Below, piece by piece: positions 14,934-56,099 of a DNA stretch of 64,000 nt. The position numbers and the translations under genes were made by a program. Within the stretch, counting starts at the first letter, position 1, and each line of letters begins with the position of its first letter. Source of the stretch: Bolinopsis microptera (lineage: Eukaryota; Ctenophora; Tentaculata; Lobata; Bolinopsidae); the NCBI RefSeq assembly GCF_026151205.1, contig NC_087082.1, forward strand, positions 20,174,494-20,238,493. Reading direction: 5' to 3'. The notes under the pieces are model-generated. The model was not told the DNA's origin, did not search any database, and saw only the letters and a list, made by a program, of their open reading frames with translations.

Positions 14934-14949
14934 ATTCGACAGAATGTAA

Positions 14950-15970
14950 CCTGATCATTACAAGAATGTTTCGTTAAAAAAGAATATTATTTACCCAGCG
15001 GGTGAAATTTATTTTTAATGAAAGCAGGTAAATTACCCGCTTTCATTACAAAATAAATTTCAACAAAGACAACTTGTTAACGGAGACAATGTAAAATTGT
15101 ATTATTTAGCGTGTATTAAAACTAAGGATTTCTAAGACGGCGTTAAAAATTGTCAAATTGGCAAGGAAAAAATAAACACGCAACCGAGTGCCAAAATGCT
15201 GGCTAATTATACCACCCCCAAGTACTGACACAGTTCTGAGGCACGTAATATTTATGGATGGATCCGTGCCATTTTACTGACACCACGGCATCAACTTGAA
15301 TGTGACTTTCCGCAAAAACCGTAAAAGATATACAATTGAAACTTTTTGACTGGGTCAAATACTTTCATGCTTTTCAAATCAGCATGAAAAAATAAAAAAT
15401 TGGCCAAGGAATAGGGATTTTAGAGCCCAAAATTTGGACCCCCAAGTGGTGTCAAAAACGCGATTTCAATAGGTCATAATTATTTCAGTCTCTTGAGTCT
15501 TGACACCACTTTAGGGTTATACGGGTTCCTGCTAGTAATCATTAATCCAGCACTATCACGTGACTATGAGACTGTTTTATCCTCGTCATGAGGAGGTTAG
15601 GATTTATTATGTATTTTGTGTACTACTTTTTTACAGTTATTTAAATGTATTTTGCTGGGTCGGGAGAGGATTATTAGCGAGATAAAAGTCAAATTATACA
15701 CGACTATCCTATGTTATCAGCTGATAACAATATTTTGATGAGTAGACATAGAAAATCCCTGATCTAAGTGTGGTGACTACAGATATAATACGAAATAATT
15801 TTACCATGCAGTTTCACAACTAACTGAAGAATTCTCTTTGATATGTGAGATAATGGCTACAAATACCCGTAACAGAATTTGTATTAAAATAGTTAGTTGT
15901 GAAACTGCAACTAAATCACTACCACTCAGGGGAAGATAATGGCTTCCAGGTTTTCCATGATCACAATTAA
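14950..15970. other. Intergenic with hairpin-forming inverted repeats
   Basis: No gene is seen. There is an inverted repeat at about 14999-15062 (gaaatttatttttaatgaaag against ctttcattacaaaataaattt). A second, gcagtttcacaactaact, is at about 15808-15909 with a 60-bp loop. A block at about 15490-15540 (agggttatacggg, cctgctagtaat) recurs near 61980-62030, so part of this is dispersed repeat. Confidence 0.55.
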
Positions 15971-17732: not shown

Positions 17733-17739
17733 CATCATA

Positions 17740-18360
17740 GCATGATGACATCAGAAGTATTCTTTAAATATTCCTTGATAAGCGGGGAGTTTTAATGCTG
17801 AACTCCGTTAGCCTAGGAATTTAGGACTCCTGCCCAGTGTTACCATGGTAACTCCTGCCCAGAGGCGACCGGATGGGGTTTTGGTTTTGAGGATAAAATG
17901 TGTCCAATAATAAGTTACATCAGCAGGATGCGTTCTGATAAGCTCATACAAATTGGATCTGATAAACTTACTTTCCTAGTTCATGTTCCTGTCATTAATA
18001 AATAAATTTAAAAGTTATTTAAATTAGTTAATTAATTATAAAATAACCTATATTATGGTACACACCGCCGCAACAAAGTGTCCTCCAACTTTACCTTAGT
18101 TTACTGTTGTCATTGCTTAGTTTCTGAAGCATTGGAAACAGTGACACTGATTAATTTGCTTAAGTGCTGCATACATCATAGTATGATAACATTAGAAATA
18201 TTCTTTAAATAAATATGATTACTCGCATTATATTGTGATAATATCAGTGTTACCATGGTAACAGTGTATGATTACTCGCATTATATTGTGGACGATGATA
18301 TAATAACTTTAGAAGTGTACATTTGTCGTTATTTATAAGCCACCGCTAAATATTCTAATA
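17740..18360. other. Intergenic, contains duplicated target sequence
   Basis: No gene. The stretch 18068-18200 is a diverged copy of 16270-16374 plus 17733-17760 and acts as the empty-site reference for retroelement copy 2. Two GTTACCATGGTAAC palindromes (about 17843 and 18250) are RFX X-box-like. Confidence 0.6.
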
Positions 18361-18959: not shown

Positions 18960-19872
18960 CAGGGTTGCCAGGGGACCTTAAAAACCTTAAAAAACCTTTA
19001 AAACCTTAAAAACGGCAATTTTGGGCAAAAAACCTTAAAAAAGACGTGAAAACGGGCAAATTTTCGGGTTTTTAAGGTTTTTTAAGGTTCCATACCTAAA
19101 TTATACCTAGCTTGATGTTAGATCTAAATGGATTTTCCGGATTAGTAAAAATTTTTGAAATTATACCTAGCTTGATGTAGATCTGATAAGATTTTCTGAA
19201 TTTATACCTAGCTCGGTGTAGATCTGATTGGATATTCTGAAATTATACCTAGCTCTGTGTAGACCTGATAAGATTTTCTGAAATTATAACTAGCTCGGTG
19301 TAGATCTGATTGGATGTTCTGAAATTATACCTAGCTCGGTGTAGATCTAATTGGGTTTTTCTGAAATTATACCTAGCTTGTTGTAGATCTAATTGGGTTT
19401 TTCTGAAATTATACCTAGCTTGTTGTAGATCTAATTGGGTTTTTCTGAAATTATACCTAGCTTGTTGTAGATCTAATTGGGTTTTTCTGAAATTATACCT
19501 AGCTTGTTGTAGATCTAATTGGGTTTTTCTGAAATTATACCTAGCTCGGTGTAGATCTAATTGGGTTTTTCTGAAATTATACCTAGCTTGTTGTAGATCT
19601 AATTGGGTTTTTCTGAAATTATACCTAGCTTGTTGTAGATCTAATTGGGGTTTTCTGAAATTATACCTTCCCCCTTTAGATATGATTGCAATTTCTGTAT
19701 CGGAAAACCTTAAATTTGCACCTTTATTGCATTACGTTTGTCCAAACTTTCGCACTGTGGACTTTAAAAAACCTTGAATTTAACTGTTTTGGACCTTAAA
19801 AATGGGTCAAAAGGGGCCTTAGAAGACGTGAAAAAACCTTAAAAATGACTCTCAAAAATGCCGGCAACCCTG
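18960..19872. mobile_element. hAT-type MITE with 8-bp TSD
   Basis: Ends CAGGGTTGCCAG and GGCAACCCTG are inverted copies, and the flanks carry the 8-bp duplication CTCATGGC (18952-18959 and 19873-19880). CAG-starting TIRs and 8-bp duplications are typical of hAT elements. There is no transposase. The inner part has runs of ccttaaaaa and a 42-bp minisatellite. The right end lies only 44 bp before an EPT1-like exon acceptor. Confidence 0.9.
19100..19672. repeat. 42-bp minisatellite inside the hAT-type MITE
   Basis: About 13 copies of a 42-bp unit (key part ttatacctagct...gtagatct). The older, left-hand copies are diverged. The right-hand eight are almost identical. The 42-bp length keeps one frame open across the array, but nothing else suggests translation. 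Confidence 0.85.
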
Positions 19873-22900: not shown

Positions 22901-25900
22901 CGTTTTTTCAAATCACAACTGCTGAATATTTTCACTTCATCCTATGTACAAATGTATGTTTGCACTTTAAAAAGCATTGCGAGTTTTTCCTCATTTTGTG
23001 CACTCTACTTTGAAAAAGGTGAAATCAGCAACTCACCACACTTAAAAAAAAACGTGTCCTACCATACTATGTGTACTATGGGTGTAATATATGCTCATAT
23101 TCACATGTTCACAGTGGTACTCATACTAGTGTATACTACTAAATTATAGAATAAGTATAAAAGAAGTACTCTTTACACATACTGTAACATGTGACACACT
23201 GTAACATGTGACATAATTACAGGCTAATATACCTCGGTGGGTTTGGTTTCTTGTTGCTGTGTTACACGCTGCTTCTCATCATCTGGACGGTATGGACGGA
23301 AAACAAGCTCGGCGTACAGGTATGTTACTTTGTTAGGTATGTTACTTTGTTTAGGTATGTTACTTTGTTTAGGTATGTTACTTTGTTTAGGTATGTTACT
23401 TTGTTTAGGTATGTTACTTTGTTTAGGTATGTTACTTTGTTTAGGTATGTTACTTTGTTTAGGTATGTTACTTTGTATAGGTATGTTACTTTGTTTAGGT
23501 ATGTTACTTTGTTTAGGTATGTTACTTTGTATAGGTATGTTACTTTGTTTAGGTATGTTACTTTGTTTAGGTATGTTACTTTGTTTAGGTATGTTACTTT
23601 GTTTTAGGTATGTTACTTTGTTTTAGGTATATTACTTTGTTTAGGTATGTTACTTTGTTTAGGTATGTTACTTTGTTTAGGTATGTTACTTTGTTTAGGT
23701 ATGTTACTTTGTTAGGTATGTTACTTTGTTTAGGTATGTTACTTTGTTTAGGTATGTTACTTTGTTTAGGTATGTTACTTTGTTTAGGTATGTCACTTTG
23801 TTTAGGTATGTTACTTTGTTTAGGTATGTTACTTTGTTTAGGTATGTTACTTTGTTTAGGTATGTTACTTTGTTTAGGTATGTTACTTTGTTTAGGTATG
23901 TTACTTTGTTTAGGTATGTTACTTTGTTTAGGTATGTTACTTTGTTTAGGTATGTTACTTTGTTTAGGTATGTTACTTTGTTTAGGTATGTCACTTTGTT
24001 TAGGTATGTTACTTTGTTTAGGTATGTTACTTTGTTTAGGTATGTTACTTTGTTTAGGTATGTTACTTTGTTTAAGGTATGTTACTTTGTTTTAGGTATG
24101 TTACTTTGTGTTAGGTATGTAACAGGTTGTAGTTATTTTAGTACGTTATTGTGTGCAATAAATATTTCAAGTTCTTATCTTACTTAGTTTTTTTTTACTG
24201 AAGTTGTTTTCAGTGAAAATACGAAAACTTTATGCAAAGGAAAAAACAGATTAATATCAGACAACAAACTGACTGCAATAATATATATACTGAACAGTGA
24301 ACAATATATCAAAGAATGTGATGGAGACCAAAACCAAATTATCAACAAACAATTATAAATCTAACAAATATCCTTTTAAAAAACTATTCTATTCACTGAG
24401 AAACTCATCAAAACAGGACACCCCCGATTTAGAAATCTCTCTTAACTTCCCGCGCACAATCTCCATCTGTTTCTCTGTAAAGTAGTTTAAGTAGTCTCCC
24501 ACTACTCCCTTCCTGATAAAGTCAAACCCCTCATTACACAAGAACTTGTTCCACTGAAAGTTAGCTGTAGGGTCTTTCTTCATCTTGTTAAATGTGGTGA
24601 GCTCTGCTATTTCCGCTGCTCGTTCCTTTGAGATGGGGATGTCGAGGAAGGAAGCTATCTTTTGAACGGTTCCGGTTTCGTCTGCTTTCATGTCTTTGTA
24701 TCTGAAATAGGGTTGTTTTATTACCAATTTTAGGTTTTAAATTCTATTTTGATCCTGTGCATCAAAATTGTATCAGACGTTTCACTAGATTAATAGATTA
24801 GTTTCTAATAAATTAAGTGTTCTACCCCGGCCCCTCAGTCCCACCCAAACCACGCTTAATTGGTTTTATTACAGAAACCAAGTACATTCTCAGAAATAGA
24901 ACACGTTAGTTAGCCCCCCCCCCCCCCCCCCCCCTGCTACTAATGCACTTAGTTAGACAACTCCGTTACAATTACAACTCCAAACTACAATTTGACTTGA
25001 AACTTAGAGCCATCAGTGAGGTAGTACTTTAAAAACAGAGCGGGTCAGTTACCATGGCAATACTACCATAATGATATTACACAACTTCACCTCAAAAAGA
25101 GAGTGTTAGGATCGCTCTGTGCCTTGTTCCAGCCCTGTGTCACGTGATCAAACCAGCTACCGAACAGTATGTCTCCCTCCAGATAGAGATTTAGATATTT
25201 CTCCCAGCTCATATCTGGGGTGCATTAGTGTTAGTGTTACCATGACGACACTACCTTATTTGGTTGTGTTACCATGACGACACTACCTTATTTGGTAGTG
25301 TTACCATGACGACACTACCTTATTTGGTAGTGTTACCATGACGACACTACCTTATTTGGTTGTGTTACCATGACGACACTACCTTATTTGGTTGTGTTAC
25401 CATGACGACACTACCTTATTTGGTTGTGTTACCATGACGACACTACCTTATTTGGTTGTGTTACCATGACGACACTACCTTATTTGGTAGAGTTACCATG
25501 ACACCACAGTATTGCTATTGTTTCAATGGAAACTTCAATAAATGAGAAGTAACTTAGTTACAATTTCACTATTTAGTTGACGAATAGTTTACAATAATAT
25601 AAATGTTCAAAAGCGGCCACATGGACATGACACAAGTTGTAAGGTACTGTGATGCACATTGCACGCATAACATGTCATCGTATGGAGTTCGGGCTAAAAA
25701 ATGCAAAGAATTCTTTATCTTGTCAGAAACCTTCAGCTCCAAATGTGCAATATCCTTTGACGATCTCAAAGTTGGCTACACAGTTATCAAATGGGTTCCG
25801 TGCTATGTAGATCGTCTTGGGTTGTTTTGGTAGCTTACTACAACGCAGACTGAAATAATTAGATGATAGTTGTTAATTCACTAATTGGGATGTCAATTAA

Positions 25901-28900
25901 CTACCTTGAATAGAAATATGAGATGTATGTCAGATCTGTGGCGGCATTTGCTAACCTTTATATAGACTATAGCCTATTTGAGAAGTCTGAGATTGAGATA
26001 AAATAAAATTATGTACAAATTTAATGTACTTTATGAATTATATCGCACCACAACTTACTGAGATTTGAATATTCTTGGAGAATCCAGCTGTTCAAGTTGT
26101 GTGTTGGTGTGTCCTTCAAACCATTTCACTAGGTTTATTATTATCTCCTCCTGGGCTACTCCCTTTATGTGTTTTATCATGTTCTGCGCCCAGTTCGACC
26201 CTGGTTGATATTTGACACTGTGACAAGTGACACACTGTGACAAGTGACACACTGTGACACACTGTGACACACTGTGACACGCTGTGACACACTGCGACAC
26301 GTGACAAGTGACACACTGTAACACGTGACAAGTGACACACTGTGACAAGTGACAAGTGACACACTGTAACACGTGACAAGTGACACACTGTGACAAGTGA
26401 CACACTGTGACACACTGTGACACGTGACAATTGACACACTGTGACAAGTGACACACTGTGACACACTGTGACACACTGTGACACGCTGTGACACACTGCG
26501 ACACGTGACAAGTGACACACTGTAACACGTGACAAGTGACACACTGCGACACGTGACAAGTGACACACTGTAACAGTAGATATAATATAAGTAAAGTCCT
26601 CGTCACTTGTTTGGTATGATATAAGTAAAGTTCTCGTCACTTAATTAAACCAGTAGCGGTCGCCGTTCCGCAAGTGCTGTGGGTAATTTGAGTACGTTCA
26701 GTTCTAAATTGTGTACAGTTCCCCAGGTTTATAATATAACGAATAATTTATTTGGGTGTTCAAGAATCGTTCAGAGCATGATACATGTGTTTGTAAGATA
26801 GATATTACCCATTGAAAGTAATAGCTTTCAAAGTTCTTTTTGTATGAAATTATATATGTAGATCCACCACTCGAATTTACAGTTCGTACATAGTCACACT
26901 TCGTGTTTCCGATGTCTCGTAGGTCAACAGAATCATCATCAATTTTAATCTATTCAATTTGATCGATGAGATATTTCAACTGCAACTCATCAAAACTGTA
27001 TAATTCCTTTACCCGATCAACAGGTTTCGATCTGTCATCCTTAGTATCCATACAGATGCAATCATGACTCGGGTTAGTTTTCAACTTGGACTTTACCCTG
27101 ATCCAGAAGATCATACATTGCTACTAAGGTTCAAGAGTTGCATCTCGAAAACATTCTTGATAATGCCAGTTATAGGTCCAGGTTGGGTGCTATATTATCT
27201 TAACCTCTCTCTTAGTTCACGGTCTGCTAACTTATAAATATCTCCGGAGGTTAACATCAGTCCTTATTATAGAGCTATAAGGTAATAAGTTAAGAAAATT
27301 TATAAATAACTCTCCCGAGACAGTAAAACAATAAAATAACTTTCATGAAATATTTTGATTTAGAAACAGAATATTGAACATCAATATCAGACTTAAAACT
27401 TGATAATTTACAGCATCAGCTATTTTGTTGTGACAGATTGGATTTCCCTATTGTAAATTATAATACTGTTTTATTAATGAAACTTGTACAGTTAAGAAGA
27501 AAAATATTTTTTTAAAGTACCTTCAACGATAAAACAATATGAAGTGAAGTTATAATATTATTATATTTTAGTTAAAGAATCACCCTCTTCCATCCCGAGA
27601 GCTTGGTTACAATCAAGTTCTCTGCTTACATACAAATTGTTATCAGATGACTGTATAAGTTGTTTGAATATGCTAAACCCCTTTGTTTTAGATTCAAGTA
27701 AAATTCCTGCTGCAAACGTTAAAAGGAAAAAATACCAGTAATTTACATCTCTTTCCAAATTGTAAACAGGCATGGTAGGAGATTTTATTTCTAAAATACT
27801 GACTATCGGAGAAACAAAAGTAAAGTGTTCAAATTTAGTGTGTTGAATATCTCCATTAGATCTTTGTAGCAGCATATCCACTCCATCTACCTTGAATCCT
27901 TTCCAGGAAAACAGAAAAGTTCCCCTTTTTATAGTTGTGTTGAAAAATGAGAACATCTTACCATGGTTGTGATTCAAATGTAAAAACAGTGTTTTGTTTT
28001 CACGGTAAAGATGTGCTGTTTGGTTATTTCCTTCAAAGAAAAAGTAGTCCTGTGTGTTGTTTGAATTGACTGGAAATTCGATGACAAAGGACAGTGCAGA
28101 AACTGCACTAAATAAAAAATTGAAATTCATTTTTTAAAAGACTGAGAGGTGCTAGATTTCATTGCTTTTATACCTTTACGAAACGATGCCATATCGATTA
28201 TACGAATCTCGAGCTAGTTTAATCGAATCCTTGATTATGGTAAACAGGTTGACAATTTCAGAGTGTTTCTCCTTAAGAATTCTCTTGGCTGAAGCACCTG
28301 AGGCAGACTGGATTTTTTCTACTACTCTCCTTTGATCATCGGTAACCTGCTCACGCTGAGGTTGACATATTGGCAACACGCCATAAGACAAACTAAGGAA
28401 CAGATTCTGCAAGGTTGGAAGATGATTCTGCACCACGATATCCAACTGATGGTTTTTAATTAGTTTTTGAATTTCAAAAATCTCCTCCATAGTTGTACAA
28501 TTAAATATTGCCTTTGATAAACTACTCAGATCTTCATCATCTTTCTGTATAGCTTTTATTTGATCATTTAATGTGCGAAGTTTTCTTTCACAATCTTCTT
28601 CATTTTCATCCAATTGTCTTTTATGATCATTTGCCATATTCTGTATTAGCTCATTGTGAGCTGCCCTCAGAGCTTGTATCTTATCACTACACTCACCCTT
28701 CATCAACTCATCAAGATCAGACATTTGACGTCGATGAAAGTTTTTGATTTTCTCAATTTCGTCATAGCACTCCTTTCGATATTCCCTCTTTTTACGCTCA
28801 AGGTTGTTTTTATGAGAAACTTCCATTCTATCAATCTTTTTCAAAAACTTAGATTTCTGTTTTTTGTGGGCTTCGAGACAGTCCAGATATTTTTTCTTAT

Positions 28901-31900
28901 AATCAACACTAGGTTTAATTCTAGCCTGATCTCTATCATCATATTCATCAATAACTGTTAAACCTCCATCGGATTGCCCATCATCATCATAGCTATCAAC
29001 AATACTAAGCTGATCATCGCTTTCATCATCTGCTGTGTATTCATCAACTATTTTCAACCCGTCATCACTTTGTGGATTAATTTTTGGAGACTTTGGAGGA
29101 TCAGAATCTTTTGCTTTCTCCCCAAGATCCTGATACCTGTCAACAATTTCTAGTCCATCATCTGATTGTGAATCATAATTCGGATGTTTGCGTGGATCAG
29201 AATCTTTTGGTTTTTCTCCTGGATCTTTATACTGATCAATGTCCACTAACCCATCATCATATTGTGGATCTTTTGTCGGTAATTTTTTCTTATCACTTCT
29301 AGGTCTGTTGTTATTCCTAGACCTTTTTGGAGGCAATCTCACTGCATTCGGATCATCGGGAGGGTAAACCCTCTTTTTTGGATTGCTATTCATATCCTTA
29401 TGATTGTGACTAACTAGTACTAAACTAGATTTATTATGCTCTCTATACTTATGCTTGTATAAGGAGGCATTTGTCGGAAAAGTTTTTTGACAGTGATCGC
29501 ACAAAAGAGCCATGTCTAAGATATGCTTTTAGGAGCTCTATTTATACTCATCTAACAACGCTAAACTGAAATGGATTTGAAGCAGCTGTATGAAAATCCT
29601 AAATTTCCAGCATCTTTCGCTGGACAAGAACGATTTTTTCGTGCATTGCAACAAGATAACCAACGCGTGAGCAGGAGAGCAGTAAACACAAAACTAAAGT
29701 CTATAGACAGTTATACCTTACACAAGCCAACCAGGAAGCCTACCTTGTACAGAAGAGTTTATACCAAAAGGATAAAATATCTTTATCAAGCGGATCTTGT
29801 AGACCTTTCAAGTCTCCAACATGACAATGATGGATACAAGTGGATAATAGTCATCATAGACACTTTTAGTAAAAAAGCATGGGGTTTCAAGATGAAAAAC
29901 AAGAGTGCAAACTCAATAGTTGGAGTTATGAAACCATTTTTTCGCCTACACACCCCTGAAAAGATTCAATTCGATCAAGGTTCTGAGTTTTACAATGCTG
30001 CCTTTCTCAAACTGCTTAAGAAGTATAAAATCAAACACTACAGTGTCTATAGTGAACAAAAAGCTGCAATCATTGAGCGATTTTGCAGAACTCTAAAAAC
30101 TCGAATGTTTAGATATTTCACTGCTCGAGGGTCTCACAGGTGGATTGACATTTTACAGGATCTTATCGATGGTTATAACAAAACCAAACATAGCTCCACA
30201 TTATTCGCTCCAAACAATGTAAGTCTAGCTAATGAGAGGGAAGTTAGGCAGAATCTTTTTCCCAGAGTTGTAAAGGAGAAAAAGCACACCAAAGCATTAT
30301 TAAAAGTGGGCGACTCTGTTAGAATAACTAGAAAGAAGGGTATCTTTCAAAAAGGTTATGAAATGACATTTTCATATGAAATCTTTGAAGTAAGTAAAGT
30401 GAAAACTACATATCCTGTTACATATGGATTGGCGGACTATAAAGGCGAGGAAATTAAGGGTTCATTTTACACCAGTGAAATTCAATTGGTTGACAAATCT
30501 GATGGTATATGGCCAATAGAGAGGATTGTTAGCACTCGTAAAAGAAACGGACAGAGTGAATACCTTGTGAAATTTCTAGGATATCCTAGCGAAGCAAACA
30601 GTTGGATAGCCCAGCAAGATCTCTTCAACACATAAATCATGCCTGTGAAATTCCTTGCTTCCCACAACTGCATCATTTTCGGACCCTCTCGGGCAGGGAA
30701 AACACAGTTCATGCTAGAGGTAATAAGACAAAAGCTAGTACATCCGATGCCTAAAAATATATATTACATGTATAGCATTGAACAAGACTTTATGAAAACA
30801 TGGAATGAAACTGAAGAACAAGCAATTACTTTTATCCAAGGTCTTGATTTTGATAAAATGAACACTTCAGAACCCAGTCTCCTTGTGGTGGATGACTTGA
30901 TCTTAAGCGGAGATAACAAGGAAATGGCGAACTGCTTCATTCTCGGTTCTCATCACCATTCAATCTCCACTTTCTTCATAACGCAGAACTTATTTCCAAA
31001 CTGTCCATTGTTCAGGATGATGAGCTCAAATGCACATTATTTTGTGCTTTTCAATAGTCAGCGTCATTTCAGACAAGTGAACACGTTGGCAAGGCAGATT
31101 TTCTGTGGAAAGGATTTAAAGAGAATAACCAATGCCTATTTAAGGAGTTCAAAGCAACCCAGAGGATTTATTGTTTTGAGTTTTGCCCCTGAACTTCCCG
31201 AAGAATTAACAGTGCTAACAGACTGGTGGCAATGGTTTCCAAGCGTTTATCTGTGAAACAAGCCAATTCATTGAGACAACACCGCTACATTTTAGAAAAA
31301 CTATCATCAAGTAGTAAAAAAAACAGACTCAAGATTTTACAGAATGCTCCATCTGAATTATTTAAAGTTCTCAATATGATATTCAAACTTCTAGCTGATG
31401 AAAAGTTACACCTTTCAAGTCACCAAGACAAAAAAATTGTGAAGCATAGAAGACTTATTCGATCCACGAGTGGTCTTAAGGGTACGCATATAAAAAGGAA
31501 ATTTTCTGGACAAAGTGGTGGTACACTATCATCTATTCTGTCTACAGTTTTACCTGTTATTGCTGGACTAGTTCAATCGATTCTTTAAATGGCAAGATTT
31601 ATCTTGGCTCCTAGAGATGGTGTGTCAAACAATGGTGAAGATGTATTTGTGCTCCTTCCAACAGAAGGACTCAGTGAGCCAAATAAAAGTATTGAACTAC
31701 CATCGGGTCTTGTTCCAAGATTAGACAATGTTCATAATGCAGAGTCAAAGAAGATTTTGGACAAACTTATGATGAAAATTGCCAAAGCCAACATTGCACG
31801 GAACAAGGATGGGTTGGTAACGGTTGGAAGTAGAGTAATGGACACTAATTTTGATGATTTTGTTTTAGATTGTTGTAATGGAGAGTTTTCTAAATGTTAT

Positions 31901-34900
31901 GAAGAAATGTATTGTTTACTTCGTAAAAATGGTATTACATTTTAAACACCCGAGTATCAATTGTCTATAAAAGCAGTAAAATTTGTGTGCATCCAATGAA
32001 TAAGATGGAGAGTATACGCAAGATTGTTATTATTGGAGGCCAAGATGGGAATCCATCACGCTTTATTTCGCAACTTGAGCCTGTCAAACTTACTGAAGAC
32101 TGTGAAATGGCTTTAACTTCTTTATACCATGGTGAGGTGTACAACATTCACGATGGAAATAATAAAGTTTATTTTTATCATACATCTCGTGAGCTCTCTA
32201 TGGAGGCATTGAAACATAAAAAGGGGAAATCTGAGACTCTAATACCTAGCGCAATGTCTAATACATTGACGGATTTGCAATTACCTGAACCTTCAATGGT
32301 AATTGTTCCTGAAGGAAGCTACAGCTCAGTATTTACAATGTGTTGGGTGATTTCCAACTTGATAAGAGAAAAGCTACAACTTGCAAAGAAGAGAGATGCG
32401 ATGCTTGCCACTACAGACAAGCAATATAGTATTATCAATATCGAAATCACTAATCTATACCTGGTTATAGAGGGGGTAAAGGACACTCCTTGGACGCTCA
32501 TGGGAGTGCATGAAGATCAGTATTCAGATAGATTTACGATAAATGATAACGACTTTCACTGCAGCGATTTTCCTGGATTTGTTTATGCAAACATTATTGA
32601 GAATTCCTACATAAATGGTAAATTGTCCCGAAACCTGGGTATGGTACCGATTAAAACTGCGCCTCAGTGGTCACTCTATGAACCAACACACCCAGACTAT
32701 GTGCCAATCAACATAAAGCAATTTTCAACAATTTTGATTGAACTTCGAGATATAAAAGGACAGTTCATCAAGTTCAACCCGAATTTCAAGACTGTTATTT
32801 CGCTCAGCATCCGATCTATAAAAAGGTGATAAAATCAGAGCTTGATAATTCTACACAAGTTGCAACCATGGAAATTTTCAAACCAGAAACTCTAAAAAGT
32901 GGAGCATATCGCTCTGTATTCGTGCAAAAGGGTGGTGCTGTTGAAATGGATCGCTACATTTACGGAATGCAAGGTGAGGGATTGGGAAATTGGTTCGGCG
33001 CCCTTATGAAACAAGCAATACCTCTGATAAGCAGCGGTATAAAAGGAATAGCCAAGGCTTCAAAACCAATCGCTATAGCTGCTGGAAAAGAGTTAATCAC
33101 TGCTGGAGCAAAACGTGGAGCTAAAGAGATTACTAAACTTTCCAATCGTATCAATCCAACAGAAATAAAAAATACTGTTGTCCATAGACCCCATAAAAAG
33201 AGAAGAAAATCAAAGAAATGGCAAAGTTTGTAAATAGTTCTGAATCTGTTTCATCTTCCTTGCTACTATGGAACGATCGTCCTACACAGGTTTCTATTGA
33301 AGAAACTTATGATTTGAAAGTATGGCCAGTTACTAATTTATTCAATGATGGACCCATCAATTTTACTCTCCCTCCCCAACCAAAGGGTCTCCTCACAGAT
33401 TTGCATATCGTTACCAAGTTAAAACTACAGAAAGATGGTGGGGACTTTCCAAAACCGAATAAGAATGTTTCCATAATAAATAATCTCGCAAACAGTCTCT
33501 GGGGCGAAGTTTCTGTAATCTGTTCTGATCGTACGGAGCTATGTCAGAGTATGAAGAACGCCTATGCCTATCAAACATTTTTCAACACCGCTCTAAATTC
33601 AGAAAAAAATCGGGAAGATTTTCTTTTGTATAACGAAGCGTTTCTAATGGATGAGGGGGTGTCTAAAAAGTCTGAAGAAGACTTACGATTGTTTTGGAAG
33701 TGGGATGAAAGTCATAAGAACGCATTTGATGATATGGTAATTGAAGATATGGAGGGCGGAGAGGATGCGATCGAGACGAAAAAAGAAGCCTTTTGGAATG
33801 CTTCATCCCTTCCAAAAGCTTTGTTAATAGAAGCGCAAAGAAGTGTGTTAGCTACCTCGGGATTGTCTGGCGATGAATTGGAGGTGGCTTTGGAAAATTT
33901 TATATCCAACACAGTAAATAATTGGATTCCAACTGATGCGAACCCTGCTGCAAGCAAACGCAGTGCTCTGGTCAATCGAGGACAGAGTCTTACTCTAAAT
34001 TCTAAATTTCAATGCCCTCTGCTTAATACTCTGAAGTGTCTTCCAACCAATATGAAGTTACGGTTAAGTTTAACAAAAAACAAAGATGAGTTTTTGCTTC
34101 TTTGTGGTGATGATGTTCATGGTTATAGTATTCTGCTTGAAGATTGCTACATACTTGCAACATACTACAGAGTACGAGATGAAATACACGATCTCATTGA
34201 AGAGAGACTTCAGAAAGAGCCTATCCCATATTTCATTTCAAGGCCTGAAATAATAATCAGACCTGTAACACAGCACAGTAAAATTATCAGAATGTCTGAT
34301 GTTTTCTCTGACACTTTACCTCCATATGCATTTTTTACACTGCAAAAGAGCAGAGATTTTGATGGACGGACAAACACAAATCCATTTATATTCCATGGAT
34401 TCAAGAAATTTCAATTTTACCGCAATGGTGTGCCATACTTCAATGATCCACTGGAGGTGGGTACTATTGATAAGCTTGGGGATCACAACTATGTATATAG
34501 TGACTTTGGAGAATATTTTAGACAGCTTTATCGTACCATTGGAAAGGAGTCTAAGGGAAATTGTCTGATTGATAGCACAAACTTTCATCTGAACTTTATG
34601 GTTGGAATGAGTTTTGGTGCTGACAGAAGCAGCTTGACAGAGAGACATTTAAATCTCCAAGAGAAAGCATCGACCTACCTTGAAATTGATCTGGGAATTG
34701 AGGATATACCAGAGGATTTAATTCTCATAGTATATGCAGTCTTTGACCGTCAACTTCAAATTGATGCCGATCGTATGGTCAGAATAATCGAGTAATAAAA
34801 GCAGCTAGAGATTCATCAGTCTATCATTTCTAGCATATACTTGTCAGTGTTGTTTCTACTTGTGATATGAAACCTCTATCAACATTGGAAATAAACAGAA

Positions 34901-37900
34901 TCCTTGAAGAAAACAGTGTGACTAAAAAATATTATATTGGAACCTACCCCTCATGTATTGCTCTAAGAACCAAAAAGAAAACATACGCTTTTATTACAAA
35001 TACTGATGAACACGATAAAACGGGACAGCATTGGAATGCATGGTTTGTTGAAGGAGAAAAGATCTCATTCTTTGACAGCTTTGGACGTGATTGGGAGGAT
35101 GCTACCCTACCAAAACATTACAGAGACATTGTTGAACCATTTGATCAAATAACTTATAGCACAACTAGAGTACAAGGATGGAATAGCGTTGCATGTGGAT
35201 TTTTCTGTATTCATTTTCTTTATGTTAAATCTTTGGGTTTAGATTATGAGGATTTTTTAAATGAATATACCAAAGATTTTGAAAAAAATGATAAGATTGT
35301 GTATGAATTTTACAAGTCGATTCAGTAGAGTTGTGTTTTAATTGTTCCAGAGATTCAAATAAAAAAATGGATATATAAACAGGAGAAGTGGGAAACAGCT
35401 TCATTTCTTAAAATTCATAATGGACTTTGCTGCTCCTCTCTTTTTGCTGTCAATGTATGGACACTACTCAAAAAATGGAAGCAGATGCTCAAAGTGCAAA
35501 GATCGAAGTCATCATAAAAAATTATGCACAAGATCACGATGTCAATACCAGAAAGAACAGGCTTTGTCGATATTGTTTGCAAGAAAATAGAAAAAGACAT
35601 ATTTGCCCTGGAAAATATATTTATGAATTTATTATGGAATCCTTTTTCAAGCGTGTTTTCTTGGACACTCAGCCATGTTGTTACCTGGACCTCTACCACA
35701 ACTGCAAGTTAACTATTGCTCAAGAACATCTCTTTGCAAACTGTAGCAATATGGACTCGATTTTATATCAAAATCTACTCTATTACATTTACGACTATGA
35801 GTTTTAAAAACAGTTGAATCTGTTGACACTGCTCACTTCTTGATCAGCACTTTAGAATCGGCAGCTATGAACTATTTTCATGATGTATACTTGGGGTTTC
35901 TTGCTGAGCAGATTGCTCGACAATGTGAACAAATGTCTGTTCTCAAGTGCTCAGCGTGTGAATCAAAAATAAAAAGCCCTCTGTTACACATTTGTCATCA
36001 ACGTGGACTTTTAGAGAAACTGCAAATTCACTTTGAGGAAGTAAGAGGACCCATGTTAACGGACATAGAAGTTTATTACGATCAGGTGCAAGAGCTTTTA
36101 CCTCACTGTGATGACCCTTCGAAAGACAAAAATAATTATATCAACGCTGGTCGGTTGTGGTTGCAAATGTGTTCGGCAGAAATTGTATTCTACGGACGGT
36201 ACATTAACGAATTCAACCATTCATTCATAGACAGAGCTTTTAAGAAAGTGAAAAAAGATGGGGTTGCAAGAATCTGAACGGAACATTGGATATCGCCTCA
36301 TGAATTTGCGCCGATACTTCCCCAGTCGCTCACGACATGTTAATCCTAGTAATGAGTTCCCTTTCACATGATAATCACATGTCGCATTCAATAAAGGCTC
36401 TGTCGTGAAAACATTGTGTCATTTCTAAAATATGAACTTTGAATTCGTTATCGCAGCTACTGAGGGTTTCACTACTCAGAATGGAGGATTTATACTCAGA
36501 GAACTCACTCTCATATTTCCCAATGAGCAGGAACAGCATTTTCAATTCAAGAATCCAGAGACCATGTACCTGAATCCGGATGAGATGAAAATAGCAAAGT
36601 TCTCTCAGCGACATTTGAATGGTTTTTCACCAACCGATAACGAGAGTTGTTGTCTCCCTGCAGCGGTATATCCTAAAATACTTGAAGAGATACAGCATTG
36701 TAGAATTTACTGCGCAGGGGAAAATGAACGTTGTTTCTTTGCTAGAAACCTACCAGATACTGAAGTTATTGATGTTTATTCTCTGTTTGACTTCAATTAC
36801 CCAACACAACTCGATAATCCGAGCTGTTTTAAGTTACATCGCTACAGATACTGTTCTCTTGCAAAAGCTAGATATTTGACTCAAAGACTTGATGGATTTA
36901 GATTATGAATTAAACACTAACTTGCTCTTTTGACCTAACGCATGTGAAATATTACATTTTATTTTATGATGTGTACTTGATATTTGTTTAGCTTCATCAT
37001 TAAACACTGTGTATCACTTGTTTGTTTTCTAAACTTGGTATACTAACGTTACAGTGAACTATAATTATCATAGTTTTATCCTTCTAGACTTCTACTCTGA
37101 TAGAGTGAAACTAGCACCTAGTGTATAATTACAGATTGGACATGAAAAGGTCTCTAACTCTAAGATCATCGCTGTACGTTACATAACACATTTTAGTGGG
37201 AGTCCCCACATACATTTGACACGGGTGGAGAGAATGCTCTCCTGATTCCGTCTTTTCTTGAGAGCCAACCCCAATCTGTGATATAGCTGACTCATGACAC
37301 TGGAGATGGGCTTAGATCTCTCTTAACGAGTCGTTAGCATCAACCATATCACAGCAATTTTTAAATATTTTTGAGTTTTGTAAACGCAAACTATGATTAA
37401 CAGAGTTGTGTCCTCAGACCTCTCCTCTGATAGAGAGTGAGGACAGCACTTAGTACTTCAGTATATTAGAGATGGATATAGAGAAGGTCTCTAACATCAT
37501 CGCTGTACGTAACATAACTCATTTTAGTGGGAGTCCCCACATACATTGACACGGGTGGAGAGAATGCTCTCCTGATTCCGTCTTTTCTTGAGAGCCAACC
37601 CCAATTTGTGATATAGCTAACTCATGACACTGGAGATGGGCTTAGATCTCTCTTAACGAACCGTTAGCATCAACCATATCACAGCAATTTTTAAATATGT
37701 TTGAGTTTTGTAAACGTAAATATTTAAGCTTCAAGTATCAACAATTTTGCTGTAGCATAGGGCTGATAGATTGATATGAGCAACATATGACATTTTTAAC
37801 CTTTTGGAAGGTTAGAAAGATAAAATCTAGCTGAATTGTAGATAAATAAGATATAAAATAGTTAGAATATAAGTTTATAGGTGAGGTGTAAGTTGGGTTT

Positions 37901-40900
37901 ATCAGAGCTTTATACTGCTGAGCTCGCAAACAACTCACAACTTACTCACTTGTACTTCAACTTGATCAGCTCTCATCAATCATTCGAGTGATCTGCATCA
38001 ATAATGAACTCTCGTTTGTGTCGTACTATCATCTTTCTCCACTGCTTGCGGTCACTAGCCAGCTCGTTCGCTCCTTCTAGATTTATATTTGTGTTTACTG
38101 AAAACACTGCAGTTTCCTGAAAACACTGCAGCATCCTGAAAACGCTGTAGCACACAACTCCTTCTCGTATGAATTTATTTGAAATAAAAACTTGTAAAAA
38201 TATGAGTTATCTGTATTAGAATTCTTAGAGCAAAAATTATTATCATTGCAAGAACTCCTTGTCCGGTGAATTTTTTAAAACTTATGAAATAGATCAACTC
38301 ACGTAAAGTTAATGTTTTAGTTTTAACAAAATCTAGAGAAGTTAATGGTTAAGAAAGCTATGGCTATGTCCTCAAACTTCTCCACTCTTCTGATAAAGAG
38401 GTAAGAAGAGCTTCCACTGCAACATATAGAGATCTGAGAGGGAGAGAGAGAGAGTAGGTCCCTAAAGATCATCAACTCGTTAGAGGTCTTTAAGATCGGC
38501 AGCTCTGTGTAGAATGGAGCAAATAAGAAATGTGGGAGGGAGGGAAAGAGCCCTCTATTTATATTGAATTTTAGTGTACCTCAGTACGACGTTATCATAG
38601 CTTAACTCTATAGGGTGTGTTAAGTTTGATCTGTGACGAAATTATCATGGGCTAACACGCTATTCCGCATGAAATAATGTGCTATACAGCAAGGAATATG
38701 CTCACGTGATTACTATAGTAGGCACTGAGTGGATGCTTCTGATGATCTAATATCAACTATCAAAGTTACCCATCAGGGTTCAACATGAAATAACGACTCA
38801 TATACATTCGAAGGGTGGATTCCTCTACTTGCTTCATATGTATAATTCCATACAATAAGAACTTTGAAAGCTATTAGCTTCAATGGGTAATATTTATCTT
38901 ACAAACACATGTACCATGCTCTGAACGATTCTTAAAGACCCAAATAAATTATTCATTATATCATAAACCTGGGGAACTGTACAAAATTTAGCACTCAACG
39001 TACTCAACGTACTCAAATTACCCACAGCACTTGCGGAACGGCGACCGCTACTGGTTTAATTAAGTGACGAGAACTTTACTTATATCATACCAAACAAGTG
39101 ACGAGGACTTTACTTATATTATATCTACTTGTAACACGTGACAAGTGACACACTGTGACAAGTGACACACTGTGACACACTGTGACACGTGACAATTGAC
39201 ACACTGTGACAAGTGACACACTGTGACACACTGTGAAACACTGTGACACACTGTGACACTGTGAAGTCTGTGGTTTACATGTCCAAGTTACGAACATGGG
39301 CTTAAGGTTTTTTTTTATAGGGTGCCAAGGGTGCCAGCACCCTTGCCTCAAATTTTTTCATCGAAAAATTAAAATTGGCTGAAACGAAAAAAAAAACATA
39401 TTTTCTTGGGGGGGGGGGGGGGGGGGGGGTGAGGTTAGGATTGAATTGACCATGGTTAATAGTGGGCCTGTTGATAGCTTGGATGTGTTTTATTATAGTG
39501 TAGACTTACTTACATGGGTCTATACTCTATAAGGTGGAATAGTGGGTCTGTTGATATTGATAGTGGGTCTGTTGTTATTAAGTGTGTGTCTACTCGCTTA
39601 ATAGTGGGTCTTTGCTACTCTGAAATGGGTCTGTAGATTGACTTGTCGGTCTGTAAGATGAAATAGTGGGCCTGTTGATATTGATAGTGGGTCTGTTGTT
39701 ATTAAGTGTGTGTCTACTCGCTTAATAGTGGGTCTTTGCTACTCTGAAATGGGTCTGTAGATTGACTTGTGGGTCTGTAAGATGAAATAGTGGGTCTGTT
39801 GATATTGATAGTGGGTCTGTTGTTATTAAGTGTGTGTCTACTCGCTTAATAGTGGGTCTTTGCTACTCTGAAATGGGTCTGTAGATTGACTTGTGGGTCT
39901 GTAAGATGAAATAGTGAGCCTGTTGATATTGATAGTGGGTCTGTTGTTATTAAGTGTGTGTCTACTCGCTTAATAGTGGGCCTTTGCTACTCTGAAATGG
40001 GTCTGTAGATTTATTTGTGGGTCTGTAAGGTTACAAAGTGGGTCTGTTATTATTGGCAGTGGGTCTCTAAGGTCAAATAGTGGGCCTATTTTTATTAAGT
40101 GTGTGTCTACTTGCTTAATAGTGGGTCTTTGCTACTCTGAAATGGGTCTGTGGATTGACTTGTGGGTCTGTAAGATGAAATAGTGGGTCTGTTGATATTG
40201 ATAGTAGGTCTGTTGTTATCAACTGTGTGTCTACTCGCTTAATAGTGGGTCTTTGCTAATCTGAAATGGGTCTGTAGATTGACTTAAGGTCTGTAAGATG
40301 AAATAGTGGGCCTGTTGATATTGATAGCGGGTCTGTTGATATTAAGTGTGTGTCTACTCGCTTAATAGTGGGTCTTTGCTACTCTGAAATGGGTCTGTGG
40401 ATTGACTTGTGGGTCTGTAAGATGAAATAGTGGGTCTGTTGATATTGATAGTAGGTCTGTTGTTATCAACTGTGTGTCTACTCCCCCATGGTCGCCTGGT
40501 AACTGGGCTGTGTTTATGACTGCAGTCAGTCAAAGATTTGAACTGTGGATTAGTCATTAGTAAATATCTGTCATAACATCCAAGCAAACATTCTAGAAGA
40601 CTTCTATAAATAGTCAATAGTGTCCCCTAGACCGTAGGAAATGTAAAAATTTTAAGACGATGAGGCCTGAGTAAGTCGTAAATTCTGATTGGAGAATGCA
40701 GATTGCTGTTGTGAAGTTACCAACTTTACGTGAGTACTTGATTCTTTTCAATCCCAGTTTATTGCTGTCCTACAAATTTCTTTAATGCCAAATGTCGTCT
40801 AAAACACCCTGTTTCGCAAAAATTTTCCAGGGGGCTGCGCCCCCCAGACCCCTGCCACAGCTTGCTCGCTTCGCTCGCTGCGCAGCTGGATTAAAAAACC

Positions 40901-43900
40901 TGGCTACGTCCCTGACCTATACCTACATCTTTATACTATAAGTATAAAGCCAGCATTTTAAGAGGTATTTGTAAGTTTTCCACATATGTATGAGTGGACT
41001 TTTGAAATCAAATTATCAACCAAAATGTGGTGGAATATTGCATATATGAATAGTACATATAATTATTCTGACGGAAGAAGGTCATCAACTTCAAGTCCTA
41101 AATTATTAGTCCAATCTCTAAGATTGCATTGTTGATAGGGAAAGTTCAAAAAATTGGATTAAAAAATTTGCGAAAAAAGTTACTGCGAGCGAAGCTCAGC
41201 CAGCGAGCCACATTCAATGGAAAAGTGGGTCTTTAACCCAAAAAAGTCAGCACCATTGGGTGGGTCTGTGGCACCCAGAAAAAAAAAACCTTACATGGGC
41301 TAGTTTGTAACAATATGTTATGTTTCTGTTACAGTGGAGTTCACAAAAAACTCATTAGAATTTAGTTTGTAGAGATTCATGTGTTTGGCTTACACCATTG
41401 AGATATTTAATATGGCATACGAATATTAAAACAGTAACAAAAGGACTATAATGAATGAGGAAAATAATATTCTTAGAACACGTGACAGAACAAACACCCC
41501 ACGTGTCAGAACAAACACCCCACGTGTCAGAACAAACACCCCACGTGTCAGAACAAACACCCCACGTGTCAGAACAAACACCCCACGTGTCAGAACAAAC
41601 ACCCCACGTGTCAGAACAAACCCCCCACGTGTCAGAACAAACCCCCCACGTGTCAGAACAAACACGTGATTCACAAACTACCTGATCTGGGAACACAGCA
41701 GATAAAGAGGTCGTCTGGTCTAGCCACGAACTGGTCACATGACTTTATTCTATCCACCCATCTCCCTCCGTGATAGTTGTATTGAGGGTAAATCATTCCG
41801 TCTTCTCCTGCGAGATACCAACATTTTTATATTTTGTAGGTTTAACATTGAGATGTTATGGCTCAGTTAATTAATCTGCGTAGCGTGGTCGTACCACGAT
41901 TAAAAGGAAGATGTTATCGGCCAATAGTAGGAACTTACCGACAGTGTGACAGAAAGGTATGTGAAGTATGTACTTACCGACAGTGTGACAGAAAGGTATG
42001 TGAAGTATGTACTTACCGACAGTGTGACAGAAAGGTATGTGAAATATGTACTTACCGACAGTGTGACAGAAAGGTATGTGAAGTATGTACTTACTGACAG
42101 TGTGACAGAAAGGTGTGCGAAGTATGTACTTACTGACAGTGTGACAGAAAGGTATGTGAAGTATGTACTTACCGACAGTGTGACAGAAAGGTATGTGAAG
42201 TATGTACTTACCGACAGTGTGACAGAAAGGTATGTGAAGTATGTACTTACCGACAGTGTGACAGAAAGGTATGTGAAGTATGTACTTACCGACAGTGTGA
42301 CAGAAAGGTATGTGAAGTATGTACTTACCGACAGTGTGACAGAAAGGTATGTGAAGTATGTACTTACCGACAGTGTGACAGAAAGGTATGTGAAGTTTGT
42401 ACTTACCGACAGTGTGACAGAAAGGTATGTGAAGTATGTACTTACCGACAGTGTGACATAAAGGTATGTGAAGTATGTACTTACCGACAGTGTGACAGAA
42501 AGGTATGTGAAGTATGTACTTACCGACAGTGTGACAGAAAGGTATGTGAAGTATGTACTTACCGACAGTGTGACATAAAGGTATGTGAAGTATGTACTTA
42601 CCGACAGTGTGACAGAAAGGTATGTGAAGTATGTACTTACCGACAGTGTGACAGAAAGGTATGCGAAGTATGTACTTACCGACAGTGTGACAGAAAGGTA
42701 TGTGAAGTATGTACTTACTGACAGTGTGACGGAAAGGTATGTGAAGTATGTACTTACCGACAGTGTGACAGAAAGGTATGTGAAGTATGTACTTACCGGC
42801 AGTGTGACAGAAAGGTATGTGAAGTATGTACTTACCGACAGTGTGACAGAAAGGTATGTGAAGTATGTACTTACCGGCAGTGTGACAGAAAGGTATGTGA
42901 AGTATGTACTTACCGACAGTGTGACAGAAAGGTATGTGAAGTATGTACTTACCGACAGTGTGACAGAAAGGTATGTGAAGTATGTACTTACCGACAGTGT
43001 GACAGAAAGGTATGTGAAGTATGTACTTACCGACAGTGTGACAGAAAGGTATGTGAAGTATGTACTTACCGGCAGTGTGACAGAAAGGTATGTGAAGTAT
43101 GTACTTACCGACAGTGTGACAGAAAGGTATGTGAAGTATGTACTTACCGACAGTGTGACATAAAGGTATGTGAAGTATGTACTTACCGACAGTATGACAG
43201 AAAGGTATGTGAAGTATGTACTTACCGACAGTGTGACAGAAAGGTATGTGAAGTATGTACTTACCGACAGTGTGACAGAAAGGTATTTTATCAGTTCTCT
43301 CCACAAAGTCAGGATCCTCCTTGTTTTGAGAGAGTAAAGCTTGGTGAGATTTGAGCACTTTGTTCATGTCCATTTTCTTGGGAGGAGAATCTGCTCTCCT
43401 TTTCATGCTAGTCATGTAAAATAGCAAGTTCGGGAGGAATTGTAAGATCGAAGATTTGTTTCTACTGGTTCTAACTGAAAGCTAATAGATAATAACGTGA
43501 TGAAATCAGATTGCACATGAACTAATATGTGTCTATTATAATAATATAGATGTTACAACCAAACTCCATAATACTTTATGTTATGTTTGGGACAACTGTG
43601 TGGTCTGTAAGTGATAATGTAAACCTCAAGGCATCATAAGAGTCACTGCAAAATCCATATACTGAGTAAGAATTTCAACATTCTGCAGAACAAGCAGCCT
43701 GAATAAGAATAAGAACAAACAGTCAGCTAAAATACCTATCAAAAGAACAGCTTGACCACAACACTCACTCCTCTTCTGTCGCTCTTTGTTCTGTGTAATG
43801 GGGTGTATTGTGTATTGTCACTAGCAGTGTATTGTCACTAGTAGTGTATTGTGCACTAGTTGTGTATTGTCACTAGTAGTGTGTACCACACAATACACCT

Positions 43901-45192: not shown

Positions 45193-48100
45193 CCCACTTC
45201 TCTTTTTTCAATATATTCAAGAATTAATAAACAAACTTTAGGATAATTCAAACAACAAACATTAGGATAAATATTAAAACAACAAACTTTAGGACAATTA
45301 TTGAAACTACTCTGGGAAAACAAGATTAAAGTTGGTTCTGACACTACTTAGCCTCTAATATAAAGCTTCACTATTACAATTAAATATAATACAATTTCAG
45401 CATGAATACGAAGTTGTTACTTTGAAACGTCGTTTATCCTAACAGTGCAGTATCATTTGTCGCAAAAAATCAGAATAATCAACAATCATTTATATAACAT
45501 AATTTCAGGATCTGGAAGTCCTCTGGGTGAGCTGATGGACCACGGTATTGATAGTAACTGTATGTGGATGCTTCCAATCTCTCTTATGAGTAAGTATCGC
45601 ACTTTACACCTCACTTTCCACTGCACTTTATACCGCACGTTACACCGCACTTTACACCGCACTTTACACCGCACTTTACACTGCACTTTACACCGCACTT
45701 TATACCGCACTCTATACCGCTCTTTATACAGCACTTTATACCGCACTTTACACCGCACTTTATACTGCACTTTATACCGCACTTTACACCGCACTCTATA
45801 CCGCATTTTACACCGCACTTTACACCGCACTTTACACCGCACTTTATACCGCACTTTACACCGCACTCTATACCGCATTTTACACCGCACTCTATACACC
45901 GCACTTTACTCCGCACTTTACTCCGCACTTTACACCGCACTTTACACCGCACTCTATACCGCACTCTATACCGTACTCTATACCGCAATTTACACTGCAC
46001 TTTACACCGCACTTTATACCTTTACTCTTATCTATCACTGTGTTATTTAGCACATTCTTGTACGACGGACTGCGCTTATCATTGTTATTTAGAAAGTTAG
46101 AACACTCCATGTGGCTTAGAAGAATGCGCTGATCCCAATCCAACGTATTAAGTTTCATTAATACAAATTGCGCTATGTTCTGACATCATGCCAACATAAG
46201 TGGTACGTGTTTAAGAGGATAAACTAGTAGGATATAATATGTTTTATAATGTGTGATGCAAGTACAGCAGCTGCAGAGTATATTGCAAATATAAGAGGAA
46301 GTGATTCATGATAAGTGCAGTTGTGCTGCTTGTATGTGCTACGAGAGTGGCTATAAGTTATATCTTAGAAAATTAGAAAGTCAAATGTTTAAAATAAAAA
46401 ATATCAGTTTATCCTGAAAATTATATATTTCAATTAATCATTACTACATGAGACTATGAGTAGCAGTAGAAGATAAGAACATTGTCTCGACAAGTTCAGT
46501 AATCAAAAGTAGCAGTGCAGGTGTAAAGTTAAGAAAAGGAAAAGAAACCCAGACCACTTTTACCCCATCATATAGCGTGTTATCGACGACCACCACTAGG
46601 ATCATACGTGTCACCAGTAACAACTGACTCATCAGATTGTGATGGATAGATAATTAAAAATGTTGGCCCCCCATTTTCAAATTTGTTATTATAACTGGGT
46701 TGATTTCTGAGTGATAGCACTGCTTATCTATTAACAGCAATACATTTTCCGGGTTACATGACCGATAAGAAGTTTGTTAAGTAGATACATATATAACGGC
46801 TCATTGTAGCAGTATATTTAAGATTTTCATCATCATACTACATGAGAATTTTAGATTTCTCGTCATCCATTACCTTGCTAAATTAATTACGACAGAGAAT
46901 TATAATCATTACCCCGGAATAACGACACTATTACAGGTGTATTTGGAAGTAACCCTGCTACGGGAGGTATCACAATGATGTTTGCTCCACTCCTCATGTT
47001 AGCACTTACCTTCAACTTCTGGGTTAACCATTGGGAGAAGTATAACACAGGAGTTCTATACCTTCCCTGGATGTTCGACATCGCTCAAGTGGTACGTTCC
47101 GCCCGCCCGCCCCCTCACCCCAACCCCCCCCCCCCCCCCCCCCACGCCCCAACCTCCCCCCCCTTTACCTTCCCTGGATGTTCGACATCGCTCAAGTGGT
47201 ACGTTCTGCCCGCCCGCCCCCTCACCCCAACCCCCCCCCCCCCCCCCCAACCTCCCCCCCCCCTCACCCCCCCCCCCCCCCCCAACCTCCCCCCCCCTCA
47301 CCCCAACCCCCCTCACCCCAACCCCCCCCCCTTTACCTTCCCTGGATGTTTGATATCGCTCAAGTGGTACGTTCCGCCTTATTCTGCTTATTCGAGCTTT
47401 TCGTTTAGAATTAAAATTGTCCTTTATATTATTATGGAGCCATTTATGCTAAAATACTACGGTGGAAATTGAGTTAATTATCCACCCCACTCCCATTAAG
47501 CCCGAATCTACTGAGAATATGTTGAAATATGTTGAAGCAGGGTTGAATACACTTGATAGGATAACTTGATTTACATTTTAACCTACTATAATATATTAAC
47601 AAGATGTTATTAAATTTAGACGGTTGTACTAGTCTTCCTGGCGGCTGGTATCATGACTCCAATGGGTCTGAGAAACTTCATCGCAGACAACTTCATTCCT
47701 TTCAACCAGATTATGTACATAATTATACCGAGTAAGTCTTATTTAATTTTAATTTATTTTAATTATCAAGCTCAATTAAATGTAAGTACCTAGTTTGTGA
47801 TCAAGAAGATTTTTAAAATTTTGATAATATTTCTTAGTATACCGATAGAAGAATTTATATATAAATTCTTCTATCGGTAGCTTAACGTTCGATTCTTAAC
47901 AGTCGAATGATTCTAAAATTCATAATTTGTTCTAAAGTAATTTGAGTCCCTCCCTGAGTTACTAAATTACTTCACAATCGACACGAATGACGTCATAGAA
48001 ATTCGTCTCTCTAATCACATTTGGCATTTCAGTTGGATTCACCGGTGCAATAGGACTCAGTATCCTCAACATCCGTTTGTGAGTTATAATTTAATTCCCC

Positions 48101-55969: not shown

Positions 55970-56099
55970 CGTACACGTTGTACAGAAAATGTACAAACAA
56001 TGTATACAAATCTACAAAGCCAGCGAGATAATTCAACGCGCACACAGAACTACTGATAAGAGAGCTACAATTTAGCAACGAATGTAAAAGTGTAATATA

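Follow-up and report, generated by a model that had tools for sequence, protein, structure and literature searches.

Polinton-type elements normally copy themselves with a DNA polymerase of their own, and it is for carrying this polymerase that Polintons are called self-synthesising. The present report concerns a polB-less Polinton element of 12,555 bp at positions 26575-39129 of a 64,000-nucleotide stretch of the ctenophore Bolinopsis microptera (contig NC_087082.1, positions 20,174,494 to 20,238,493; hereafter the window), which belongs to a family of ten copies in the same genome. Because polB is lost while the genes for insertion and for the virion shell are kept, we propose that the polymerase is probably borrowed from relatives that share this genome.

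Among published systems, the closest in gene content is Tlr1 of Tetrahymena, which carries no canonical PolB alongside its rve integrase, ATPase, capsid and penton genes (PMC4028283, PMC4642659, PMC11071308). However, Tlr1 carries a fusion of a PolB palm with a superfamily-1 helicase and lacks the protease (PMC11071308, PMC4028283), whereas in the window element no replicase was detected and a protease is present. Those Polinton-like viruses and meldviruses that have no PolB likewise contain shell genes (PMC4642659, PMC11071296), but most of them also lack the rve integrase or use another replicase. Vertebrate Mavericks of axolotl, tuatara and pike are reported to have been amplified without a working polB (PMC8097293); there polB is broken but present, while here it is absent and the remaining genes are under constraint. 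Transpovirons and PolB linear plasmids, with a replicase between terminal inverted repeats (TIRs) and without shell genes (PMC11071308), resemble a second class of elements in this genome, the polB-only elements described below; these differ in being chromosomal, in having AGTAGT ends and a C2H2 gene, and in one exact 6-bp target-site duplication (TSD).

With Polintons proper (Mavericks, polintoviruses, adintoviruses) the window element shares a 6-bp TSD, TIRs starting with AG, an rve integrase with a chromodomain, a single-jelly-roll penton, a double-jelly-roll capsid and an adenovirus-type protease; a packaging ATPase of the FtsK/HerA type is a candidate common gene, the P-loop-type matches being below threshold. 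It differs in the absence of polB, in its length (12.6 kb) and in the terminal AGTAGA instead of AGTAGT. We call it a polB-less Polinton derivative because PolB, one of the features that define Polintons, was searched for and not found. The literature searched (partial coverage, mostly titles and the beginnings of abstracts) contained no description of such a polB-less family.

The element and its family

The first-pass annotation, made from the letters alone, had placed the element at exactly these coordinates, and its description of an exact 6-bp duplication with inverted termini of about 310 bp is borne out: TGTAAC stands on both sides, and the TIR arms of about 312 bp are complementary in two blocks (93% and 85%). 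Both ends open with AGTAGATATAATATA. The insertion site is a minisatellite of the GTGACACACTGT type. When the flanks are joined with one TSD copy, the resulting 40-mer has 3 occurrences in the flanks, and 6-mers paired between the two flanks are identical in 2.0% of cases anyway. All 13 open reading frames (ORFs), g1 to g13, are open. The features are as follows (window positions, strand in brackets).

26569-26574: left TSD, TGTAAC
26575-26886 (+): left TIR, starts with AGTAGATATAATATA, contains two 34-bp repeats
27561-28130 (-): g1, 189 aa; by eye a signal-peptide-like start, N-glycosylation-type sites and one hydrophobic stretch; homologues adjoin polB in relatives
28176-29513 (-): g2, 445 aa; N-terminal C2H2-type zinc finger (sub-threshold) and coiled-coil-like middle
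29571-30635 (+): g3, rve integrase with C-terminal chromodomain, 354 aa (Pfam)
30639-31256 (+): g4, P-loop packaging-type ATPase, 205 aa (sub-threshold matches)
31226-31588 (+): g5, 120 aa, no family label
31589-31945 (+): g6, 118 aa, no family label
31987-32829 (+): g7, penton protein, 280 aa (AlphaFold2 model and Foldseek)
32826-33233 (+): g8, 135 aa, basic C-terminus; the pVI-like candidate of the first-pass annotation
33218-34795 (+): g9, double-jelly-roll capsid (AlphaFold2 model and Foldseek)
34867-35328 (+): g10, adenovirus-type cysteine protease (Peptidase_C5), 153 aa (Pfam)
35421-35807 (+): g11, open frame of 128 codons, cysteine-rich
35801-36277 (+): g12, open frame of 158 codons; homologues adjoin polB in relatives
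36432-36908 (+): g13, 158 aa; a homologue adjoins polB in a relative
36909-38808: right non-coding region, two copies of a repeat of approximately 330 bp, no trace of polB
38809-39129 (-): right TIR
39130-39135: right TSD, TGTAAC

The intact integrase, capsid, penton-like protein and protease that had been read by eye all hold. Pfam scans place g3 (rve PF00665, E=2e-12; chromodomain, E=3.5e-8) and g10 (Peptidase_C5 PF00770, E=1.6e-7) above the cut-offs. The capsid model (predicted local distance difference test, pLDDT, 78) matches in Foldseek the double-jelly-roll capsid proteins of PBCV-1, an iridovirus, Sputnik and mavirus with E from 2e-14 to 1e-9, and the top structural matches of the penton model (pLDDT 84.9) are the mavirus penton and the adenovirus penton base (E from 3.5e-7 to 8e-4). 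The ATPase has P-loop-type Pfam matches, all below the cut-offs, and a sequence search of the PDB gave nothing for it at E<=1. A confident family match is lacking for eight of the 13 ORFs.

The genome searched comprises 264.65 Mb in 232 contigs; the contigs named here are C1 to C13 (lengths seen for 11, all >16 Mb). Searches with the TIR, the integrase and the capsid agree on ten copies with >90% capsid identity, which fall into three subfamilies:

Subfamily A: C11 (window), C3:9.80M, C3:10.44M, C10:2.22M
Subfamily B: C10:8.88M, C1:0.05M, C5:23.44M, C13:6.97M
Subfamily C: C7:16.93M, C9:8.36M

All 13 genes occur in each of the nine sisters in a single common order, several sisters being longer owing to insertions within or beside genes. 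The idea that the window copy is a unique internal deletion, which the first-pass annotation had named as its own refutation, is thereby rejected. Exact 6-bp TSDs at different sites flank nine of the ten copies (by eye; the right end of the C7 copy is unmatched), and these differing TSDs speak against an origin of the ten copies by segmental duplication. Comparison of the window genes with the B and C copies gives ratios of non-synonymous to synonymous substitution rates (dN/dS) of 0.05-0.61 for every gene, most of them 0.1-0.35 (pairwise values with shared ancestry and without a significance test, hits covering under 93% of a gene being left out). Values below 1 between the three subfamilies point to selection during their divergence. 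Within subfamily A the ATPase of C10:2.22M is an outlier (5.19, from a dS of 0.004 beside an insertion), and several other comparisons have a dS of 0.

Several sisters have in-frame stops or breaks, although some gaps are merely boundaries of the stretches read; the C1 copy is the only one of the nine with all 13 genes in uninterrupted matches. In four B copies g1 ends three residues early. Over the first 200 bp, three of nine copies have left and right TIRs that agree at 99-100%; in the others the two differ by 3-9.5%. Same-side TIRs of the window and of C3:9.80M are 100% identical, though left differs from right.

Outside the genome, the protein database holds 185 capsid relatives, with the capsid of Mnemiopsis leidyi at 62% identity; scans of viral contigs and genome contigs elsewhere found no relatives of the family. 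Two side observations concern derived copies. At C13:4753575-4754548 lies a 974-bp derivative with both family TIRs and an exact TSD, AGCTTA, and in sister C13:6.97M the left end with part of g1 is duplicated in tandem (positions 324 and 3972 of the stretch).

The polymerase gene and its occurrence in the genome

The claims that no frame of the element carries a polymerase, primase or helicase motif, and that no polB gene or remnant is present, withstood all searches. Eight PolB ORFs of the same genome, used as queries, had no match in the element or in the 18 stretches covering its nine sisters; the sole two matches (E 0.23 and 0.74) are at window position 60738, outside the element. A further query, the C-terminal exon from a closer PolB, gave at best E 1.8 in the family, while as a positive control it matched known PolB loci at 1e-4 to 4e-14. 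A PolB gene, at about 3.7 kb, would not fit into either of the two non-coding gaps of the element, which measure 0.67 and 1.9 kb. Pfam scans of 17 ORFs revealed no polymerase, primase or helicase domain beyond one sub-threshold RNA_helicase match (E=0.01) on the ATPase g4, and no domain of the Tlr1-type fusion of PolB palm and superfamily-1 helicase; no ORF in the element is both unassigned and long enough for that fusion. In a first whole-genome PolB search (39 of 222 candidates scored) no match was closer than 148 kb to any of the ten integrases, and in a second (78 of 78 scored) none lay inside the ten copies. PolB searches of the element, its sisters and the genome assign no protein-primed DNA polymerase B to the family.

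As for the identity of the queries, PF03175 scored 50-51 bits on two PolB ORFs in the genome profile search, while hmmscan of the same two disagreed and gave only Endonuclease_7. We take both as PolB because of the PF03175 score and of homologues with precomputed PF03175; named relatives include one from Mnemiopsis leidyi (58%). The Endonuclease VII-type match lies inside PolB (about residues 444-496 of ORFs L001 and L002) and is below the cut-off.

polB does occur beside related Polinton genes in this genome. A second integrase group has eight full-length members, 58-66% identical to the family integrase (about 64% for the polB-bearing relatives), with capsid proteins 50-69% identical to those of the family. 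Upstream of the integrase (+) at C5:4.40M the order is polB 3' end (+), g13 (-), g12 (-), g1 (-) and g2 (-); polB is truncated there and adjoins an antisense capsid fragment, and its 3' sequence recurs with 100% identity at C13:6.37M, C11:6.94M and C5:12.59M. At C13:6.37M, C11:6.94M, C1:0.35M and C1:4.95M the integrase has a PolB match some 6 kb upstream; at C5:12.59M the upstream distance is 11.6 kb. These are five of nine relative loci (the eight full-length ones and the degraded C1:4.95M). Among the remaining loci, C5:4.40M retains only the 3' end, C10:8.56M has a 69% DNA match to that 3' end, and searches of the integrase loci gave no PolB match at C1:17.41M and C9:8.59M. PolB matches also stand beside integrase or capsid genes at C1:8.05M, C5:23.59M and C11:10.49M. 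At C11:19.58M polB, spread over several frames, is followed by g12, g1, g2 and the integrase start; no capsid gene was found within the stretch read.

By comparison with these relatives, the window family has no polB at its left end, and g12 and g13 are at its right end in opposite orientation. Since two relatives share the same gene order, we read the loss of polB as the presumably derived state. The earlier suggestion of an unrecognised polymerase-less lineage stands insofar as a multi-copy lineage exists; it does not stand as a separate kind, the family being presumably a derived branch of the polB-bearing Polintons of the same genome. The longer relative with identical termini and polB that had been anticipated did not turn up in the TIR search (45 matches, best candidates only): the matches are family copies, the 974-bp two-ended derivative and unpaired pieces, all at least about 76 kb (by eye) from the PolB matches of the first whole-genome search.

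A full partition of polB and capsid genes between elements was the initial impression, the first polB hits all being away from integrase and capsid genes. It is rejected, as several integrase or capsid loci turned out to have polB next to them. These polB genes, which look split by introns or frames, had escaped the PF03175 search. The 3' end of one of them (L058:4386-4950) looks split by a short intron, with a frame change in a conserved stretch; intact vertebrate Mavericks are reported to have no introns (PMC8097293).

Still other elements combine TIRs with polB, and no integrase or capsid gene was detected in them. The element at C3:11680502-11688675, about 8.2 kb long, is bounded by TIRs of 531 bp (97%), with ends AGTAGTATACAATATGG and an exact TSD, CGTGTC; the only Polinton genes detected in it are polB and a C2H2 gene. 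In the one at C5:13157518-13167203, about 9.7 kb long, polB and C2H2 lie between TIRs of 441 bp (96%) with ends AGTAGTATACATAATAG; its flanks show no clean TSD. The first 37 bp of the two families are 78% shared. At C9:0.66M (C9:666300-670200) there is a palindrome whose arms, 1776 bp long and 100% identical, flank a 303-bp spacer; two polB genes run outwards from its centre, which is consistent with a head-to-head dimer of polB-only elements. No Polinton gene was found in the 6.2 kb beyond one side. Long open PolB genes are still present in the genome, with dN/dS of 0.08, 0.13 and 0.16 in three close pairs and of 0.04 in a distant pair with saturated dS. Further close PolB pairs were noticed at C7:6.69/6.70M, C9:6.595/6.605M and C13:13.624/13.630M. 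The genome contains candidate helpers of two sorts, polB-bearing relatives and polB-only elements.

How the family may be copied

We infer, rather than observe, copying in trans, and lean slightly towards it: a Polinton lineage without polB but with virion genes would be copied by the PolB of co-resident elements. An ancestor would have lost polB and retained integrase, packaging ATPase, capsid, penton and protease. A linear DNA copy would be needed as the substrate for the packaging and integration genes of the element; PolB from polB-bearing relatives or from polB-only elements, as the nearest source, would copy the element ends in trans, the shell genes of the element would package the copy, and its integrase would re-insert it. 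The element would then be an unusual satellite, with its own integrase and shell and lacking the polymerase only. We favour this course because of the co-residence, the polB-bearing relatives with the same genes, the constraint on the shell genes and the near-identical TIRs of three copies, which are expected if the ends are sometimes renewed together.

Several observations weigh on the other side. In six of nine copies the agreement between left and right TIRs is no more than 90.5-97%, so the ends are not renewed in every cycle. The family ends match those of the polB-only elements only over AGTAG and A/T-rich sequence, and the end motif is AGTAGA in the family and AGTAGT in the two polB-only families read; an (AGT)2 end motif has been linked to jumping-back (PMC8097293). 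A shared origin with the polB-only elements was considered and rejected, the TIR comparison yielding short chance-level pieces besides the AGTAG start.

Movement without any PolB is rather unlikely in our view. The integrase would excise and re-insert the element, the host would copy it along with the chromosome or through repair, as for integrase-only DNA transposons, and the shell genes would serve the packaging of excised DNA or some other use. Between subfamilies A and B no gene is better conserved than the integrase (dN/dS about 0.1), the distinct left and right TIRs of six copies and the complete same-side identity of the window and C3:9.80M agree with such movement, and integrase-type cut-and-paste transposons, the Ginger elements, have been described (PMC2836005). 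However, thirteen genes including the full shell set are constrained, and the near-identical TIRs of three copies are at odds with it.

A bipartite Polinton is decidedly less probable. Capsid-integrase elements and polB/zinc-finger elements, separately integrated and each with its own TIRs, would divide the genome between them, one part supplying the polymerase and the other integrase, packaging and shell, alongside undivided Polintons. It is these undivided relatives in the same genome that make such a reading less likely.

Equally doubtful, or slightly more so, is a past burst in which the family was amplified with a now-vanished helper and the copies decay without function. In most sisters one gene or more is interrupted, only the C1 copy being uninterrupted (some interruptions are stretch boundaries), and vertebrate Mavericks with fragmented polB are reported to reach high copy number (PMC8097293). 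Yet all 13 window genes are open, dN/dS is below 1 between the three subfamilies, and long open PolB genes persist in the genome. Finally, an unrecognised replicase making the element self-sufficient is very improbable despite the eight ORFs without a confident family match: g1, g2, g12 and g13 also adjoin polB in relatives and are therefore no replacement for it, and g5, g6, g8 and g11 have only 118-135 codons.

A multi-copy family with a constrained integrase and shell set and no detected replicase means that a Polinton-type element can shed the replication module while it keeps spreading. With polB-only elements alongside, both helper-satellite relations and the division of a Polinton genome become testable in one animal.

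Surroundings of the element in the window

A reverse transcriptase ORF of a non-LTR-type element lies at 4077-6080 (-) (PF00078, E=1e-16). Two nearly identical ORFs of about 330 aa at 10184-11173 (-) and 16746-17750 (-) are possibly a repeat-borne gene; the former has no Pfam match, and an ORF at 55013-56011 (-) is similar to both by eye. Host-type ORFs encode a rhodopsin-family receptor at 13824-14954 (-) (8e-14) and a WSC-like domain at 60136-60552 (+). Another host-type ORF, at 1049-1816 (-), has a BTB domain (2.5e-4), with a near-duplicate by eye at 3190-3969 (-). Long minisatellite arrays at 19249-19777, 23212-24187, 41871-43481 and 45406-46132 are open in several frames and mimic ORFs.

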